A stretch of 64,000 nt of DNA from Oehlia diaphana. Lineage: Eukaryota > Glomeromycota > Glomeromycetes > Glomerales > Glomeraceae. The DNA lies in NCBI GenBank assembly GCA_003833135.1, contig QZLH01000366.1, forward strand, positions 6,436 through 70,435, given 5' to 3'. Of this stretch, positions 2,259 to 32,376 are shown piece by piece. Within the stretch, counting starts at the first letter, position 1, and every line of letters starts with the position of its first letter. Made by a program: the position numbers and the translations under genes. The notes beneath the pieces were generated by a model that saw only the letters and a list, made by a program, of their open reading frames with translations, ran no database searches and was not told where the DNA came from.

Positions 2259-3760
2259 ATGTCTCAAATGTCTCAACACGCTGGATCCAGAAAGAGTTTT
2301 GATAAGTGTTTTGATTGCGAACGAACAGCAGTAGCATGGTGTAAGAATTGCGATATTGCATTTTTAAAAGAAAATTCTCATAATTGGACTAGTGGAAACT
2401 CTAAAATAGATGAACTTATTAAATATATTCAGTTAAATGACAGAGAGAGTATGGGTTACCTTGAATGGATTGATTTTGATCAATTCGACTTGATCGAAAA
2501 TATTAATAAACGAGGCGCTTTCAGCTCGATTTATTCAGCAGTATGGATGGATGGTCCAAAATGGAATCTTGACGAAGAAGCCAAAATATGGACTCGTACT
2601 GGTCCAATTAAGGTGATTCTAAAACGATTAGATAATTCTCAGAACATAGATCAGGAATTTGTAAATCAGGCAAGTAAACAAACAATTTTGATTAGTAACA
2701 TGATTAAGATACGTGACCAGTTCGAAATATGATGATGATTGAGAAACTAAATGACGTTATTTCTGAAAAGATCTATAAACTTAAGTAAATTCTAAACAAA
2801 TTTAGTGTTTCTTAGATAGATTTGTTAGGATAACGAAGGTTGTGACTTCTACCCGGAAATACATTTAACCGTCCAAAATTTCTAATTCACATGAAAATGA
2901 TTGCGTATGATAACTATTGATATTAACCCTATTATTGTTTTTCTTTCTTTTTTAATCTAATAAAGTTATATAGATATCATAAATGCTTACAAAGTGGAGC
3001 ACTTGCAGATTGTTTTGGTATAACCAAAGATCTAACATCATGCTACATACTCGTTATGAGATATTATAAAAATGGAGATTTATACTCATACCTTGGAGAA
3101 ACTATGGGGATTCTTTGTTGGAGAGATATTGTAGACATGCTATGGTCAATATCCGCAGGTCTAAATTTTATTCACAAACATGGTCTTGTTCATGGACATT
3201 TACATGGAGGAAACATATTAGTCGAAAGTAATGTGAACTCTATTGATATTAAAATCACGGATACTGGATTACACGGACCTTTTGATAATCAAATATCGTC
3301 AAAACAAATTTACGGTGTAATTCCCTTTGTTGCGCCAGAGATCTTTGATGGAAATACACCAACTAAAGAATCCGATGTCTATAGTTTTGGAATGGTCATG
3401 TGGATGTTATCGGCTGGTGTGCGGCCTTATTGTGATAGACCTCATAATAAACAATTAATTCATGAAATCTGCTTAGGATTAAGGCCAAACATCGTAGATG
3501 GAACTCCACCTGTTTTCTCCAGTTTAATGTTACAATGTTTAGATGCAAATCCATCAAATAGACCAACAGCATCACAACTTGATGAATGTTTTGGAAATTG
3601 GGTCATAGCAATTTGTGATGACCCTGAACCATCCGATTTATCAAATCAATTTGACGCTGCTGAAAAAACCAAATTCTCAAACTTAGAAAATTCTAATTTT
3701 AATACTTTCGAGAGTCACGTAAAAGCATTTTATTTCAGTCGTCCGTTATTAGATGCTTAA
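2259..3760 (+). CDS. TKL-type kinase-like protein, probable pseudokinase, with N-terminal Cys module
   Basis: Two exons, 2259-2669 and 2966-3760, give about 401 residues. I chose the ATG at 2259 (MSQMSQHAGS) because the frame upstream has no ATG. Residues about 14-30 carry two CxxC pairs, followed by NWTSGNSKIDELI, a module shared with the broken paralogues at 17.4 and 29 kb. The kinase domain starts near residue 75. A degenerate Gly loop (RGAFSSIYSAVW) and a candidate ATP lysine (VILKRLD) are visible. The catalytic HRD is replaced by HGH (LVHGHLHGGN) and DFG by DTG, while APE is kept (VAPEIF). These changes predict loss of phosphotransfer, so it may bind or scaffold instead. The intron has a GC donor (caG|gcaagt), and the acceptor ...taaag|TTATAT keeps the frame. 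The tail ends YFSRPLLDA. No disabling mutation is visible. Confidence 0.82.
2670..2965 (+). other. GC-AG intron of the kinase-like gene
   Basis: Exon 1 ends at cag and the intron begins gcaagt, the standard extended donor of the rare GC-AG class. The broken paralogues use a GT donor (gag|gtaact) at the same phase-0 place. The 3' end has a pyrimidine-rich tract before taaag. No GT donor nearby keeps the frame. Confidence 0.7.
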
Positions 3761-10001: not shown

Positions 10002-10719
10002 AGCGATAATTATATTCGCTCAATTCTGTATAAATTTTTTTATTTTGGCCGTTATTGTTAAAAAACAAGGTTAATCTTTTGATCTTTTTGAATATTAATA
10101 TGGGTAGATCGTTATTCTAAAAAGGAAACAGGATGCTTTAACATTCCCTCCGTACAAATATTTATTTATTTGAAAAAATAAATATAATTATCATGAGTTA
10201 CCACAGTCCACAGCTAGTTACATTCAATTGGTAAATTAGCCTTGCAAAACTCGGGGCAACGCCCACAACTATTATCGATTTTTTAAAAAAAGTTATAGTA
10301 ATGGTAATCTGGGAAAAAATTTGTCCATGTCCTGTTTTTAAAGCAATGCAAACAAAGAAATGGGCGTAATCGCATCAGTTTGATTTTATCGATTCTTTCA
10401 TTAGAGATGGCCCATTCATTCTTTAAAAGGAAATCCTATTTGTTGATTATCTGATTATTCAATGGATAACGAATAAAGGTTATATTATTTCATTTTCTTT
10501 TGCTGCTGACTAATTTATTTTAACGAATTTTCTAATTGACTAACTAATTTTATTTAAATAATGATAGAATTATAACCGGTTGTTAAATAAACTATCCTTG
10601 AAAATTGATCCTTGTGAATTTTTTGTTACTTAAAGGAGCACAAATTCCGTGTATATCTCTGATATTTATATAGGCTACATACTAACAGATATACACTATC
10701 AAAAAAAAAAAATAAAAAA
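10002..10719. promoter_or_regulatory. 5' flank of the VWA-TLDc gene
   Basis: No gene is visible. The last 120 bp contain gatatttatatagg, an A run just before the ATG and no recognisable VWA-coding sequence. That supports translation starting at 10720 rather than in a missed upstream exon. Confidence 0.35.
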
Positions 10720-12449
10720 ATGGATACTCAGATAGGTTGCGCTATCAAAGCTAGTAATGAACTAGTGAAAAATTTACATCGTGATGGATTTGATCGTGGA
10801 TGTATTGCGACATTCAACGATTATATGACGGTTAGGCAGGTGAATGATATTTCCCTTTTAATCCCGTATTATGTACTGTTTTTGTATGATTTTTTTTAAA
10901 TAAGTTACGTTCTTTCTATTTATGTATAAGCCCTTCACTAATAATAAAGCATCCCTTCATCGTTCTCTTAACGGGATAAATAATGCTAGAAATGACACTC
11001 GTCTTTATGACAGTATTGTTGACGTCATACAAATCTTTCGGAGTAGAGGTGACGTTTCTCGTCCCTGGATTTTGGTTGTCGTAACTGATGGAGTTGATAA
11101 TTTAAGCAGTCGAAGCTTACATAAATGCGCTCAAGAAATATCAAGTCTATTTACTAATGAATCTAATAATTTCTTGTTCCTTGTCGGAGTTGGAGATGGT
11201 GTGAATTCAGAAAGGATGAATGAGGTATTACCATACTTTTTGTTTATGAATAATTTGATATTTAAATCACGTAACTATGCTTTTTAATTAGATGGCTAGT
11301 GCTGGCAAATTCATCTACATCCATGCCAAAGATTTTTTCCTCCTTGAACTTATATTTTTGAAAATTGCCAACAAAATTACCACTTCTTTGTCTCTTTCAC
11401 TTGGAAACCTCACCGTCGGTGACCATTCCGCGTCATGGGCCGAAGTTCAAAGACACAGAAATCTCAGCAAAGTAGCAATGGATTATGCTCTCTTGATTGA
11501 CGTATCGGCATCCATGAATAGTCGTGTAATAAGTTCAAATAGTGTAACAAATCTGAATAATATAATAACTCATACAACTCGTGCAATAGGACAAATAGGA
11601 CAATCTTTTGACTCTAGGATTATTAATACTACAAATGTAGCATTATTAGCAAGTTGGATTGATAGGAAACGAGGAAATCCTTATAATTTTAGTGATATAC
11701 CTTTTGAATTTAAGCTTATTTATCGTGCTAGTCGTGATGGTTTTAGGAATGACAGATTTCATGACAAATGTGATAATAAGGGGCCAACCATCGTTGTTAT
11801 TAAAGTTAAATATTCAGGAGAGATAATTGGTGGATATAATCCATTAGAATGGCGTTGTGATAAAATAAATGAATGGAGTACTCTATTGCCTAATAATCAT
11901 GTTGATCAACAATGTAAAACGTCAAAGAGTTTTATATTTTCACTAACAAATCAAACAATTAGTCGAGTAACTTTAAATAACGATGCGATCATTTGGAATA
12001 GAAACAAAGGACCGTGTTTTGGTTTACAAGATTTATGTATAACAAATAATTTTGGTAAAAGCGAACAGCGTTCATACGAAAATAGAATTATTAACAAAAC
12101 AAATTTTGAAATAGAAGAATATGAAGTATTTCAAGTTATTGATAAAAGACCTAGATTTTCTATTTGTTACTATATTTATTTGTGGATTTTTATGGGGATT
12201 TTTAGCATTTTTAAGTTTATATTTATGGGAATTTATTGGGCGGGTTATATTGTATATCGGATTATATATGGGATTATATATTGGACGGTTATAATACTAT
12301 GTTGCGTTGCAGGTATAGGGCTGATTGTTTCTATTCTTGCAATTCCTATTATACTGTATCTGTATCTGGAAGTTGAGATAGCTTGGGTTATTCTTTCTGC
12401 CTTATTTATATATGCTCCAATTTTGGGGCTAATTGGGGAATACTTGTAA
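10720..12449 (+). CDS. VWA-TLDc-transmembrane protein with permuted-looking VWA domain
   Basis: Three exons (10720-10839, 10931-11224, 11292-12449) give about 523 residues. Residues 1-190 look like a von Willebrand factor A domain that begins just after the MIDAS loop: MDTQIGCAIKASNELVKNL, then CIATFND, the MIDAS threonine region (NDTRLYDSIVD) and VVVTDGVDN. The DxSxS motif expected before residue 1 appears instead near residue 205 (YALLIDVSASMNSR). A TLDc domain follows at about 240-415 (WIDRKRG, FKLIYRASRDGF, VVIKVKYSGEIIGGY, EEYEVFQV). The last ~95 residues form about four hydrophobic segments, so the protein is probably membrane-anchored at its C-terminus. TLDc proteins are linked to oxidative-stress resistance and V-ATPase regulation; VWA domains bind proteins through a metal. 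The splice signals and frame are clean. The function of this fusion is unknown. Confidence 0.82.
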
Positions 12450-20559: not shown

Positions 20560-22017
20560 ATGACCTTAACTTTTCATTCTAGTCTTTCAAAAGATTTTTC
20601 CTTACTATTAAATGATGCTGACGACTACAACGTTATTATTCAAGTCGGTGAAAATCAAAATACAAAAGAATTTCGTGCACATTCTGTTATTTTGCGTGCT
20701 CGTTCTCCATATTTTAAAAGGGCTCTTTCAACTAATTGGATTATTAAAAAAGATAATATGATTACGTTTAATAAACCAAATGTTACTCCAAATATTTTTG
20801 ACATAATTTTAAAGTAAGTGGTTTTGTTAATTTTAAATTAATTTATTTAAATAATTATTATATTTATATTATTTTAATTAAGATATTTTTACACAGGTGA
20901 ACTTGATTTAACTAAACACTCAGGTAATGACATTCTTGATTTATTAGTTGTATCTGATGAATTACTTCTTGAAGAGTTATTTGGGCATATTCAAAATTAT
21001 TTAATCGAAAAACAAAGTAATTGGGTCCATGAAAATAATACCCTTGTTCTTCAAACTGCGTTTAAATTTGAAAGTTGCAAATTAAAAGATTATTGTCTTG
21101 AGTTTATTTGTGGGAATCCACAACTTCTTATCGGTTCAAAAACTTTTCTTTCACTAGATAAGGAAATCCTTTTTAGTTTACTTAAAAGAGATGACTTACA
21201 AATTGAAGAAGTTGTCATTTGGGATTATCTAATTAAATGGGGTATTGAACAAACTCCGGATCTTGGAAGTAATAGAGTAGAGTGGAATAATGAGAATTAT
21301 AAAGCGTTAAAAAAAACATTAAATCAATTTATTCCTCTTATTAGATTTGTGGATATTTCTCGTAGTGATTTATTAGTAAAAGTAATTCCTTATAAGGCTA
21401 TTATTCCTAGTCATATTTATGAAGAAATTGAGAAATTTTATTATGAGGATATTTTGCCAACTTTACCACACAGAACAGGAAAAATCCAATCAAATATTAT
21501 AAAACCAAAACTTGTAAATATAATTGCTAATTGGATGGATAAAAATTCATCACATAAATTTGATCTCATTTATCGTGGTAGTCGTGATGGAATTGACAAT
21601 GAATCATTTAAAAATAAATGTAATGGTCGAATAGCGGGTTATGTTTTAATTAAAGTAAAACAATCAAACAAAATATTTGGTGGATATAGTTCTATTGGAT
21701 TTAGTTCAATGGATAAGAATCTACGTAAAAATGTATCTTTACCATTTTATTATTCTTTAGATAACTTTATTTTCTCATTTGAAAATAATGAAGATACTGA
21801 AGATACTCAAAATATGAAAATAGGACGTGTAGTAAATTATTCCGAAGCTATGGTGGATTATAATCGTACAGCATTTAATTTTGGTTGGGGTGTACTTTAT
21901 ATGAAAGATAAAATTTTATATGTTAATAATAATCAAAAAACTTATGAAAATATTTTTGGTACATCTACGTCTTATATTATTGAAGAAATTGAAACTTTTA
22001 CTATAGTCAACAATTAA
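20560..22017 (+). CDS. BTB-BACK-TLDc protein
   Basis: Two exons (20560-20813 and 20883-22017) give about 462 residues. The BTB domain spans roughly residues 10-115 (DYNVIIQVGE, FRAHSVILRARSPYFKRAL, YFYTGELDL). A BACK-like helical region follows to about 240 (ESCKLKDYCLEFI, VVIWDYLIKWGIEQ). A TLDc domain fills about 270-460 (ANWMDKNSSHKFDLIYRGSR, VLIKVKQSNKIFGGYSSI, NYSEAMVDYNRTAFNFGWG). BTB-BACK proteins usually serve as Cullin-3 substrate adaptors, so this may bring a TLDc target to ubiquitination; that role is inference. The family is heavily expanded in Rhizophagus. The frame and splice sites are intact (donor gtaagt, acceptor ttaag). Confidence 0.88.
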
Positions 22018-31131: not shown

Positions 31132-32376
31132 CACTGGTAAAAAAATGGTCTATCCTACACATATCCTACACATATCTTACATATATCAGGTACTCAAAAT
31201 GTAGAAAATCATACACAAATAATACATATATCATACATATATCGTGTACTAATATATATATCATATATATATCAAGTACCTGATAGGTATACAATATATA
31301 TAAGTACCCGATATGTAAGGTTGCTTGCCGAAACCTTCTTAATAACTGCCGAAACCTATACGGAAAATGCCGAAACTATATTAAATCATATTAAAAATCC
31401 TGCCGAAACTTTGCCGAAATGCCGAAACCCCNNNNNNNNNNNNNNNNNNNNNNNNNNNNNNNNNNNNNNNNNNNNNNNNNNNNNNNNNNNNNNNNNNNNN
31501 NNNNNNNNNNNNNNNNNNNNNNNNNNNNNNNNNNNNNNNNNNNNNNNNNNNNNNNNNNNNNNNNNNNNNNNNNNNNNNNNNNNNNNNNNNNNNNNNNNNN
31601 NNNNNNNNNNNNNNNNNNNNNNNNNNNNNNNNNNNNNNNNNNNNNNNNNNNNNNNNNNNNNNNNNNNNNNNNNNNNNNNNNNNNNNNNNNNNNNNNNNNN
31701 NNNNNNNNNNNNNNNNNNNNNNNNNNNNNNNNNNNNNNNNNNNNNNNNNNNNNNNNNNNNNNNNNNNNNNNNNNNNNNNNNNNNNNNNNNNNNNNNNNNN
31801 NNNNNNNNNNNNNNNNNNNNNNNNNNNNNNNNNNNNNNNNNNNNNNNNNNNNNNNNNNNNNNNNNNNNNNNNNNNNNNNNNNNNNNNNNNNNNNNNNNNN
31901 NNNNNNNNNNNNNNNNNNNNNNNNNNNNNNNNNNNNNNNNNNNNNNNNNNNNNNNNNNNNNNNNNNNNNNNNNNNNNNNNNNNNNNNNNNNNNNNNNNNN
32001 NNNNNNNNNNNNNNNNNNNNNNNNNNNNNNNNNNNNNNNNNNNNNNNNNNNNNNNNNNNNNNNNNNNNNNNNNNNNNNNNNNNNNNNNNNNNNNNNNNNN
32101 NNNNNNNNNNNNNNNNNNNNNNNNNNNNNNNNNNNNNNNNNNNNNNNNNNNNNNNNNNNNNNNNNNNNNNNNNNNNNNNNNNNNGAAACCCTGCCGAAAC
32201 TATAGTAAACATATAGTAAAATCTTGCCGAAATTTATCGCAGGATTTTGGAGAGGTTTTGGCAAGCAACCTTACCGATATGTATATGATATGTGTATTAT
32301 TTGTGTATGATTTTCTACATTTTGAGTATCCGATATGTGTAAGATATGTGTAGGATAAATCATTTTTTTACCAGTG
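31132..32376. mobile_element. Long-TIR element with GCCGAAAC array and assembly gap
   Basis: The left terminus cactggtaaaaaaatgg...and right terminus ...catttttttaccagtg are inverted repeats. They extend well over 100 bp (shared block tactcaaaatgtagaaaatc) up to gtaaggttgcttgcc. TTAATTA flanks both ends (31125-31131 and 32377-32383), a 7-bp target duplication. Inside, gccgaaac recurs at least eight times at 15-30 base spacing on both sides of a run of N. The superfamily is unknown. Confidence 0.8.
31432..32184. other. Run of 753 N (assembly gap)
   Basis: All bases are N. The gap falls inside the GCCGAAAC array, which is consistent with a collapsed or unresolved tandem repeat. Any reading frame across it is meaningless. 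Confidence 0.99.

Follow-up and report, generated by a model that had tools for sequence, protein, structure and literature searches.

A probable natural circular permutant of the VWA domain joined to a TLDc-tail module in Oehlia diaphana

Among metal-dependent folds for adhesion and scaffolding, VWA and integrin I domains belong to the best studied. The usual account of their allostery is a movement of helix alpha7 at the pole opposite the metal, which is held by a metal ion-dependent adhesion site (MIDAS). For the TLDc family, binding to the V-ATPase is reported for yeast and mammalian members. In the window analysed here, a stretch of 64,000 nucleotides from Oehlia diaphana (C365:6436-70435 of its own assembly G000, 108.8 Mb), a three-exon gene at 10720-12449 (+) encodes a protein of 523 residues in which the elements of a VWA domain follow one another in another order. 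With a probability of about 0.85, we read this gene as coding for a VWA (Rossmann-like) domain that has undergone natural circular permutation and is fused to a TLDc-tail module.

Gene structure and order of the VWA elements

The exons at 10720-10839, 10931-11224 and 11292-12449 are separated by two GT-AG introns of phase 0, and their splicing bears out a preliminary description of this DNA, in which a 523-residue protein was said to start where a VWA domain would continue past DxSxS. The residues named in that description are found at T63 (NDTRLYDS), D93 (VVTDGVD) and D208, S210 and S212 (LIDVSASM). The chain begins with alpha1 and runs through alpha7 and a helical connector into the late segment DYALLIDVSASM. 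The donor site of exon 1 is backed by the residues VRQ, which are kept in P0003, P0005 and others of an 18-row alignment described below. As the end of the VWA domain, the late DxSxS, the TLDc domain and the tail share the single open frame of exon 3, the fusion is no gene-model join. The features of the gene are the following.

10720..10839 (+): exon 1, residues 1-40, which has the start codon and holds alpha1 (helix) and beta2 (strand) of the permuted VWA domain; a stop at 10660-10662 precedes its frame, which is open from 10663
10931..11224 (+): exon 2, residues 41-138, the central part of the VWA domain, including T63 and D93, from splicing and alignment
10997..10999 (+): T63, MIDAS threonine by analogy with VWA/I domains, T in 47/47 aligned rows
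11087..11089 (+): D93, MIDAS aspartate (TDG), D in 44/44 non-GNAT rows
11292..12449 (+): exon 3, residues 139-523 and stop, one open frame with the VWA end, connector, late strand, linker, TLDc domain and tail
11412..11474 (+): connector, residues 179-199, with a predicted helix, which links the old C-terminus behind alpha7 with the old N-terminus at beta1
11475..11516 (+): late strand beta1 and DxSxSM, residues 200-213 (D208, S210, S212), with the first MIDAS half placed at the domain end
11517..11606 (+): linker from VWA to TLDc, residues 214-243, of low predicted confidence in the ortholog P0002
11607..12137 (+): TLDc domain, residues 244-420, by Pfam TLD match
12156..12446 (+): hydrophobic C-terminal region, about residues 427-523, with three or four likely membrane helices, from hydropathy and the modelled helices of P0002

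The late strand, written as a degenerate DNA pattern, is matched once in the 64 kb and in 0 of 100 shuffles. LIDVSASM had been called the only DxSxS of the protein; its position stands, and its uniqueness does not, as a second textual match, D182-H-S-A-S, lies within the connector. The Asp of this second match is not kept by relatives (N in P0005-P0007).

Conservation was followed in an alignment of 47 rows, comprising 44 fungal and bacterial/unknown rows and three GNAT-fused rows. These rows were chosen by a late-motif expression that fixes S210, S212 and M213 and permits D, N, V or S at 208, and the informative points are therefore T63, D93, D208 and the absence of an early motif. T63 is invariant in the 47 rows, and D93, D208, S210 and S212 are kept in all 44 non-GNAT rows, the counts for S210, S212 and M213 being circular given the way the rows were chosen. 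In 0/44 of the non-GNAT rows does a DxSx[ST] stand ahead of the T motif. Outside the GNAT type, a late D-x-S-x-S-M is also missing from 13 fragments or short models, and from three ordinary VWA proteins, among those checked.

When the last 16 residues were placed in front, the VWA_2 score rose by 9.0-12.1 bits in 5/5 pairs, and that of PF00092 by 10.2-14.4 bits in the four pairs where it was reported, the window protein not being among these four. The window protein scored 25.9 bits in its native order and 37.1 bits when rotated, as against 23.1-26.0 bits for controls made with three shuffled strands and four other segments. When the protein is compared with P0005, P0006, P0007, P0013 and P0018, conservation is highest in the late segment. 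The permuted order of elements leads to weak scores in domain libraries that are bound to the usual order. The open frame around exon 2 alone reaches 21.1 bits with Pfam VWA, under the cut-off of 23.8, and no NCBIfam model reached its cut-off for any of 6 proteins.

Set beside the VWA superfamily, the protein has the MIDAS residues DxSxS, T and D (T63, D93, D208, S210 and S212), and models of its homologs match the fold of helices alternating round a six-stranded sheet. The order beta1-DxSxS, then T, then D is not there: DxSxS comes last in the window and in 44/44 non-GNAT rows, themselves chosen by a late motif. The circularly permuted VWA domain (cpVWA) is thus a topological variant and no ordinary member of the superfamily. 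The marks that we propose for a permuted family, namely an alpha1 start, a connector, a final D-Y-A-x-L-I-D-x-S-x-S-M and no earlier DxSxS, are all found here.

Predicted fold and the TLDc-tail half

AlphaFold2 (AF2) models of the homologs P0006 and P0002 stand in for the window protein; P0002 is without VRQ through its gene model. Sequential structural alignment to integrin alphaM 146-324 covers residues 9-184 of P0006 and 1-173 of P0002. The DxSxS of the alphaM MIDAS is presumably at 140-144, and beta1-DxSxS is thus left unpaired in the target, as is the late strand in the model. The late segment is itself a predicted strand, with a block value of the predicted local distance difference test (pLDDT) of 95 in P0006 and 93 in P0002, and the P0002 model has a helix at 185-194 in the connector. 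From these models we infer that the late strand closes the sheet in space. The suggestion in the preliminary description that a permuted domain might still fold is well supported by conservation, rotation scores and the homolog models, and its premise that a MIDAS requires DxSxS first in the sequence would fail for the permuted family, provided that the models are correct. The best PDB sequence match of a profile of the bacterial relatives is integrin alpha-X (E 0.0034, over profile 31-105).

Downstream of the late DxSxS, the expected TLDc domain is confirmed by a Pfam TLD match (PF07534, 2.9e-19, 70.1 bits against a cut-off of 24.5, profile 3-169 of 170), which spans residues 106-282 of the open reading frame and thereby residues 244-420 of the protein. 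About four membrane spans had been predicted behind it. The hydrophobic tail is there and the number is approximate: hydropathy windows above 1.6 start at residues 427-505, the model of P0002, the R. irregularis ortholog, places helices at 426-449, 451-497 and 500-525, and together they fit three or four. No signal peptide is apparent by eye in the 523 residues. The P0002 model also matches TLDc proteins solved with the V-ATPase.

The likely source of the TLDc-tail half is the group of BACK-TLDc-tail proteins. In the own genome, L005, L008 and L010 have BACK and TLD above cut-off and hydrophobic tails by eye, and L003 has BACK slightly below cut-off. Among other proteins, P0030 has BACK and TLD above cut-off and tail hydropathy peaks, and P0022, for which BTB is listed, also shows such peaks; P0020 and P0023, further close BTB-BACK-TLDc matches, are without a hydrophobic tail. 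A query with the TLDc-tail part gave at least 125 matches in the own genome. A cluster of TLDc-encoding loci, L005-L010, several with BACK and hydrophobic ends, lies on one contig (G000:C112), and the window has a further TLDc gene, of BACK-TLDc type, at 20878-22014 (+). Elsewhere in the window, a protein kinase frame (PF07714, 3.3e-34) lies upstream of the cpVWA-TLDc gene at 2927-3757 (+), and a run of 753 N occupies 31432-32184, the long apparent frames that span this gap being artefacts.

Relatives in fungi and bacteria and the origin of the permutation

The 18-row alignment (A1), taken from the first match list, contains the window protein, its orthologs P0002 and P0003, a metagenome piece with TLDc (P0004) and 14 further proteins, and D208, S210, S212 and M213 are invariant in it. 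Nine of its 18 rows start with M[ED]T[QRK] and one has the same start inside a partial protein (P0017), while five have a short different extension without DxSxS and three miss the region. The 14 further proteins, of about 300-370 residues, come, P0010 apart, from Rhizophagus, Glomus, Gigaspora, Acaulospora, Funneliformis, Entrophospora, Ambispora, Diversispora and Cetraspora; a C1 zinc finger (PF03107) is listed for 6 of them and its cysteine pattern is visible in most. A profile built from ten of these 14 found 42 proteins, including metagenome proteins and P0131 of Cladochytrium tenue, which also shows the beginning of a zinc finger. The combination of cpVWA, TLDc and tail was seen only in Rhizophagus proteins and metagenome pieces (P0004, and P0133 by a similar intron, by eye).

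P0001, listed for Rhizophagus diaphanus, is 99% identical to the window protein over 91%, and by eye the two differ only at the skipped VRQ and at a splice in the tail, both matters of gene model. The records of P0001 and P0002 skip VRQ, which P0003 and the zinc-finger relatives keep, and P0003 is without part of the TLDc domain; these defects weaken the domain annotation of P0001-P0003. A broken copy of a cpVWA-zinc-finger gene, with stops and frame breaks, lies at G000:C3:178178-178979 (-) (L016), its ATG preceded by an in-frame TAA within the same exon. Apart from this copy, no intact second permuted gene was found in G000; P0005 is listed for R. diaphanus, so that G000 may be incomplete or represent another isolate. 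VWA_2 has five other matches in the own genome, none of them at the cpVWA-TLDc gene or the C3 copy, and all start at profile positions 1-7.

A second profile (A5), which already included some metagenome proteins, found 66 proteins, among them P0154 from a Roseiflexaceae metagenome-assembled genome (MAG). Many of these matches are about 220 residues long, start near K-I-[ED]-Y-A and finish with D-Y-A-F-L-[IL]-D-x-S-x-S-M and a few residues. Two strict peptide patterns run over 84,980 species genomes gave 7 stretches, 3 of which encode relatives: L023 and L024 in Chloroflexota MAGs and L025 in a complete chromosome of Ktedonobacterales. L023 and L025 are stand-alone frames, and L024:4201-6666 (+) is a frame of 822 residues with a protein kinase (5.7e-56), TPRs and the permuted VWA domain at its extreme C-terminus. 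The stop codon follows 4 (L023), 5 (L025) and 4 (L024) residues past SM, and no other DxSx[ST] occurs in these frames. By eye, the surrounding frames listed for L023 and L025 have no shared neighbour, and no further search was made; among 16 pattern-matching stretches in viral_contigs there were 0 relatives. A further group is made up of the GNAT-type permuted VWA proteins (P0139, P0140, P0164, P0167, P0169, P0170 and P0172-P0174), most of them with a GNAT acetyltransferase behind the domain. The first Asp of the late motif is replaced in 9/9 of them, and both D93 and D208 are lost in 3/3 aligned GNAT-fused rows.

Bacterial/unknown rows have the same break point as the fungal ones and a similar connector, mostly with Trp, and permuted relatives rank above the ordinary VWA proteins P0141 and P0142 in the profile search. 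These three observations favour one permutation; the permuted domain predates this gene, and its origin is, to judge from the sequences, probably single. In a tree of the 47 rows the window protein groups with P0002 and P0003 (100/100) within the Glomeromycotina rows, and 27 bacterial/unknown rows are separated from these (100/100), with the Cladochytrium protein P0131 beside them on a long branch. Circular permutation can arise, by a standard route, from a tandem pair that loses its outer parts, and the preliminary description had derived the domain in this way from an array in this gene, with a metal site put out of order by the loss. The permutation itself, the single occurrence of each element and the fusion to TLDc and a hydrophobic tail agree with that account; the loss in this gene does not, since relatives show the same join and a similar connector and the permuted form is inherited. 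A tandem-pair loss would have preceded this gene.

Alternative readings, proposed mechanism and known systems

The unusual order could be an artefact of annotation, in which an upstream exon provides DxSxS in the ordinary place and the late motif is a truncated second copy. Intron-bearing fungal genes are often mis-modelled, VRQ being skipped in P0001 and P0002, and DxSx[ST] occurs textually at two places 2-3 kb upstream (7822 and 8606). Neither of these, however, is preceded by a hydrophobic strand, and the three forward frames from 9000 to the start codon contain no D-x-S-x-[ST], the frame of exon 1 opening after a stop. An upstream exon of this kind, for which the preliminary description had left room, is thus disfavoured. 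The starts of 14 of the 18 rows (M[ED]T[QRK] in nine, a short DxSxS-free extension in five), the stop before the ATG of the C3 copy and the intron-less bacterial frames L023-L025, with DxSx[ST] at the end only, argue in the same direction, and we regard an artefact as extremely improbable. It is also highly improbable that the N-terminal VWA domain is broken for want of beta1 and DVSASM a useless remnant of a second repeat. Such a leftover is the outcome expected when a tandem pair loses its outer parts, and the native Pfam scores are weak and two short R. irregularis models are without the late strand; but the late segment is the most conserved one against the five zinc-finger relatives, T63, D93 and D208 are kept in every non-GNAT row while D93 and D208 disappear jointly in the GNAT-fused rows, and the late strand is confidently predicted in both homolog models. 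A strand-swapped oligomer, in which the late beta1-DxSxS would complete the sheet of a neighbour and the metal site would exist only in a dimer or chain, gains some plausibility from termini that lie at the metal site and from a connector whose start is of low confidence (pLDDT 42 at 181-190 of P0006 and 37 at 171-180 of P0002) and could open. The high AF2 confidence of the strand in a monomer speaks to some extent against it, and we hold it to be improbable.

Several points weigh against a circular permutant as well, besides the circular counts noted above. Among the fusion orthologs P0002-P0004 conservation is higher in the connector (100, 100 and 90%) than in the late strand (94, 94 and 81%). 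Closure of the sheet is a prediction, and AF2, being familiar with VWA folds, could complete a sheet by habit; the alignments behind the models have 31 and 35 rows, and the predicted template modelling scores are 0.63 and 0.48. In P0132 (184 aa) and P0175 (151 aa), two deposited R. irregularis models of the same gene that belong to the fragments or short models counted above, connector and late strand are missing after SLSLS, as is the VVTDG stretch that holds D93; an error of gene modelling, alternative splicing or decay in certain strains may be responsible. Bacterial members are rare, with 3 loci in the 84,980 species genomes under strict patterns, 1/400 genomes in a phylum scan (the centre itself), 2/47 in one class (the centre and a C-terminal partial match) and 2/298 in another (both already known). 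The tree is unrooted, and its placements give neither the direction of a transfer nor fungal monophyly.

For a circular permutant we propose the following mechanism. The five residues T63, D93, D208, S210 and S212 would assemble as in an ordinary VWA domain, and both chain ends would lie at the metal face, at the pole opposite to that of an ordinary VWA domain. The permuted domain serves as a module, which precedes a C1-type zinc finger in Glomeromycotina and, in Chloroflexota, stands by itself or follows a kinase and TPRs; in Rhizophagus it is joined within one exon to the TLDc-hydrophobic-tail half. Given the lack of an apparent signal peptide, both the VWA and the TLDc part would be cytosolic, with the tail as the anchor. 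The MIDAS would bind Mg2+ together with an acidic residue of a partner, the TLDc domain would contact the V-ATPase, and binding of the partner would then place or gate a V-ATPase regulator at the membrane. That the protein is in this manner a metal-dependent adaptor on a V-ATPase-type TLDc regulator is a tentative proposal, which we think rather unlikely to hold. It has about an even chance that the permuted VWA domain is real and the TLDc domain a scaffold without action on the V-ATPase, inherited from a family that has expanded in these fungi: the own genome has many TLDc-like places, and a study in yeast does not decide whether other organisms conserve the disassembly activity. The same study treats V-ATPase binding as a conserved TLDc role, and the ortholog model resembles TLDc proteins solved with the V-ATPase.

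More broadly, and again doubtfully, a single ancient permutation may have made a VWA family common to bacteria and fungi in which effectors behind DxSxSM hang off the ligand-binding face, so that ligand binding would move the effector there and not via alpha7, and in Rhizophagus this switch would be coupled to membrane V-ATPase control. We know of no ordinary VWA or I domain with such signalling geometry at the metal face. A natural permutant whose termini sit at the metal site, occurring from Chloroflexota to mycorrhizal fungi, would test which parts of the alpha7 mechanism are required, and the permuted VWA domain is a new partner for the TLDc family in obligate plant symbionts. In the open literature, most subscription papers lying outside its scope, we found no published permuted VWA domain, and also in the open literature nothing on a TLDc or TLD domain with Rhizophagus (irregularis).

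Compared with the VWA and integrin I domains that carry a MIDAS (PF00092, PF13519), where beta1-DxSxS is first, the protein described here has it last and its domain ends at the metal face. In relation to Oxr1, Rtc5/mEAK7 and NCOA7, the TLDc proteins of yeast and animals, it differs in having a permuted VWA domain as N-terminal module and, as anchor, a C-terminal hydrophobic tail instead of a myristoyl group. The BACK-TLDc-tail proteins of Glomeromycotina are alike in TLDc domain and hydrophobic tail, whereas their N-terminal half is BTB/BACK and not VWA. The circularly permuted RAS-like GTPase, cpRAS, is likewise a natural permutation of a Rossmann-like switch domain with a scattered distribution (PMC2430557); there the GTPase is permuted and not a VWA domain, although some cpRAS members also hold a VWA domain (PMC2430557).
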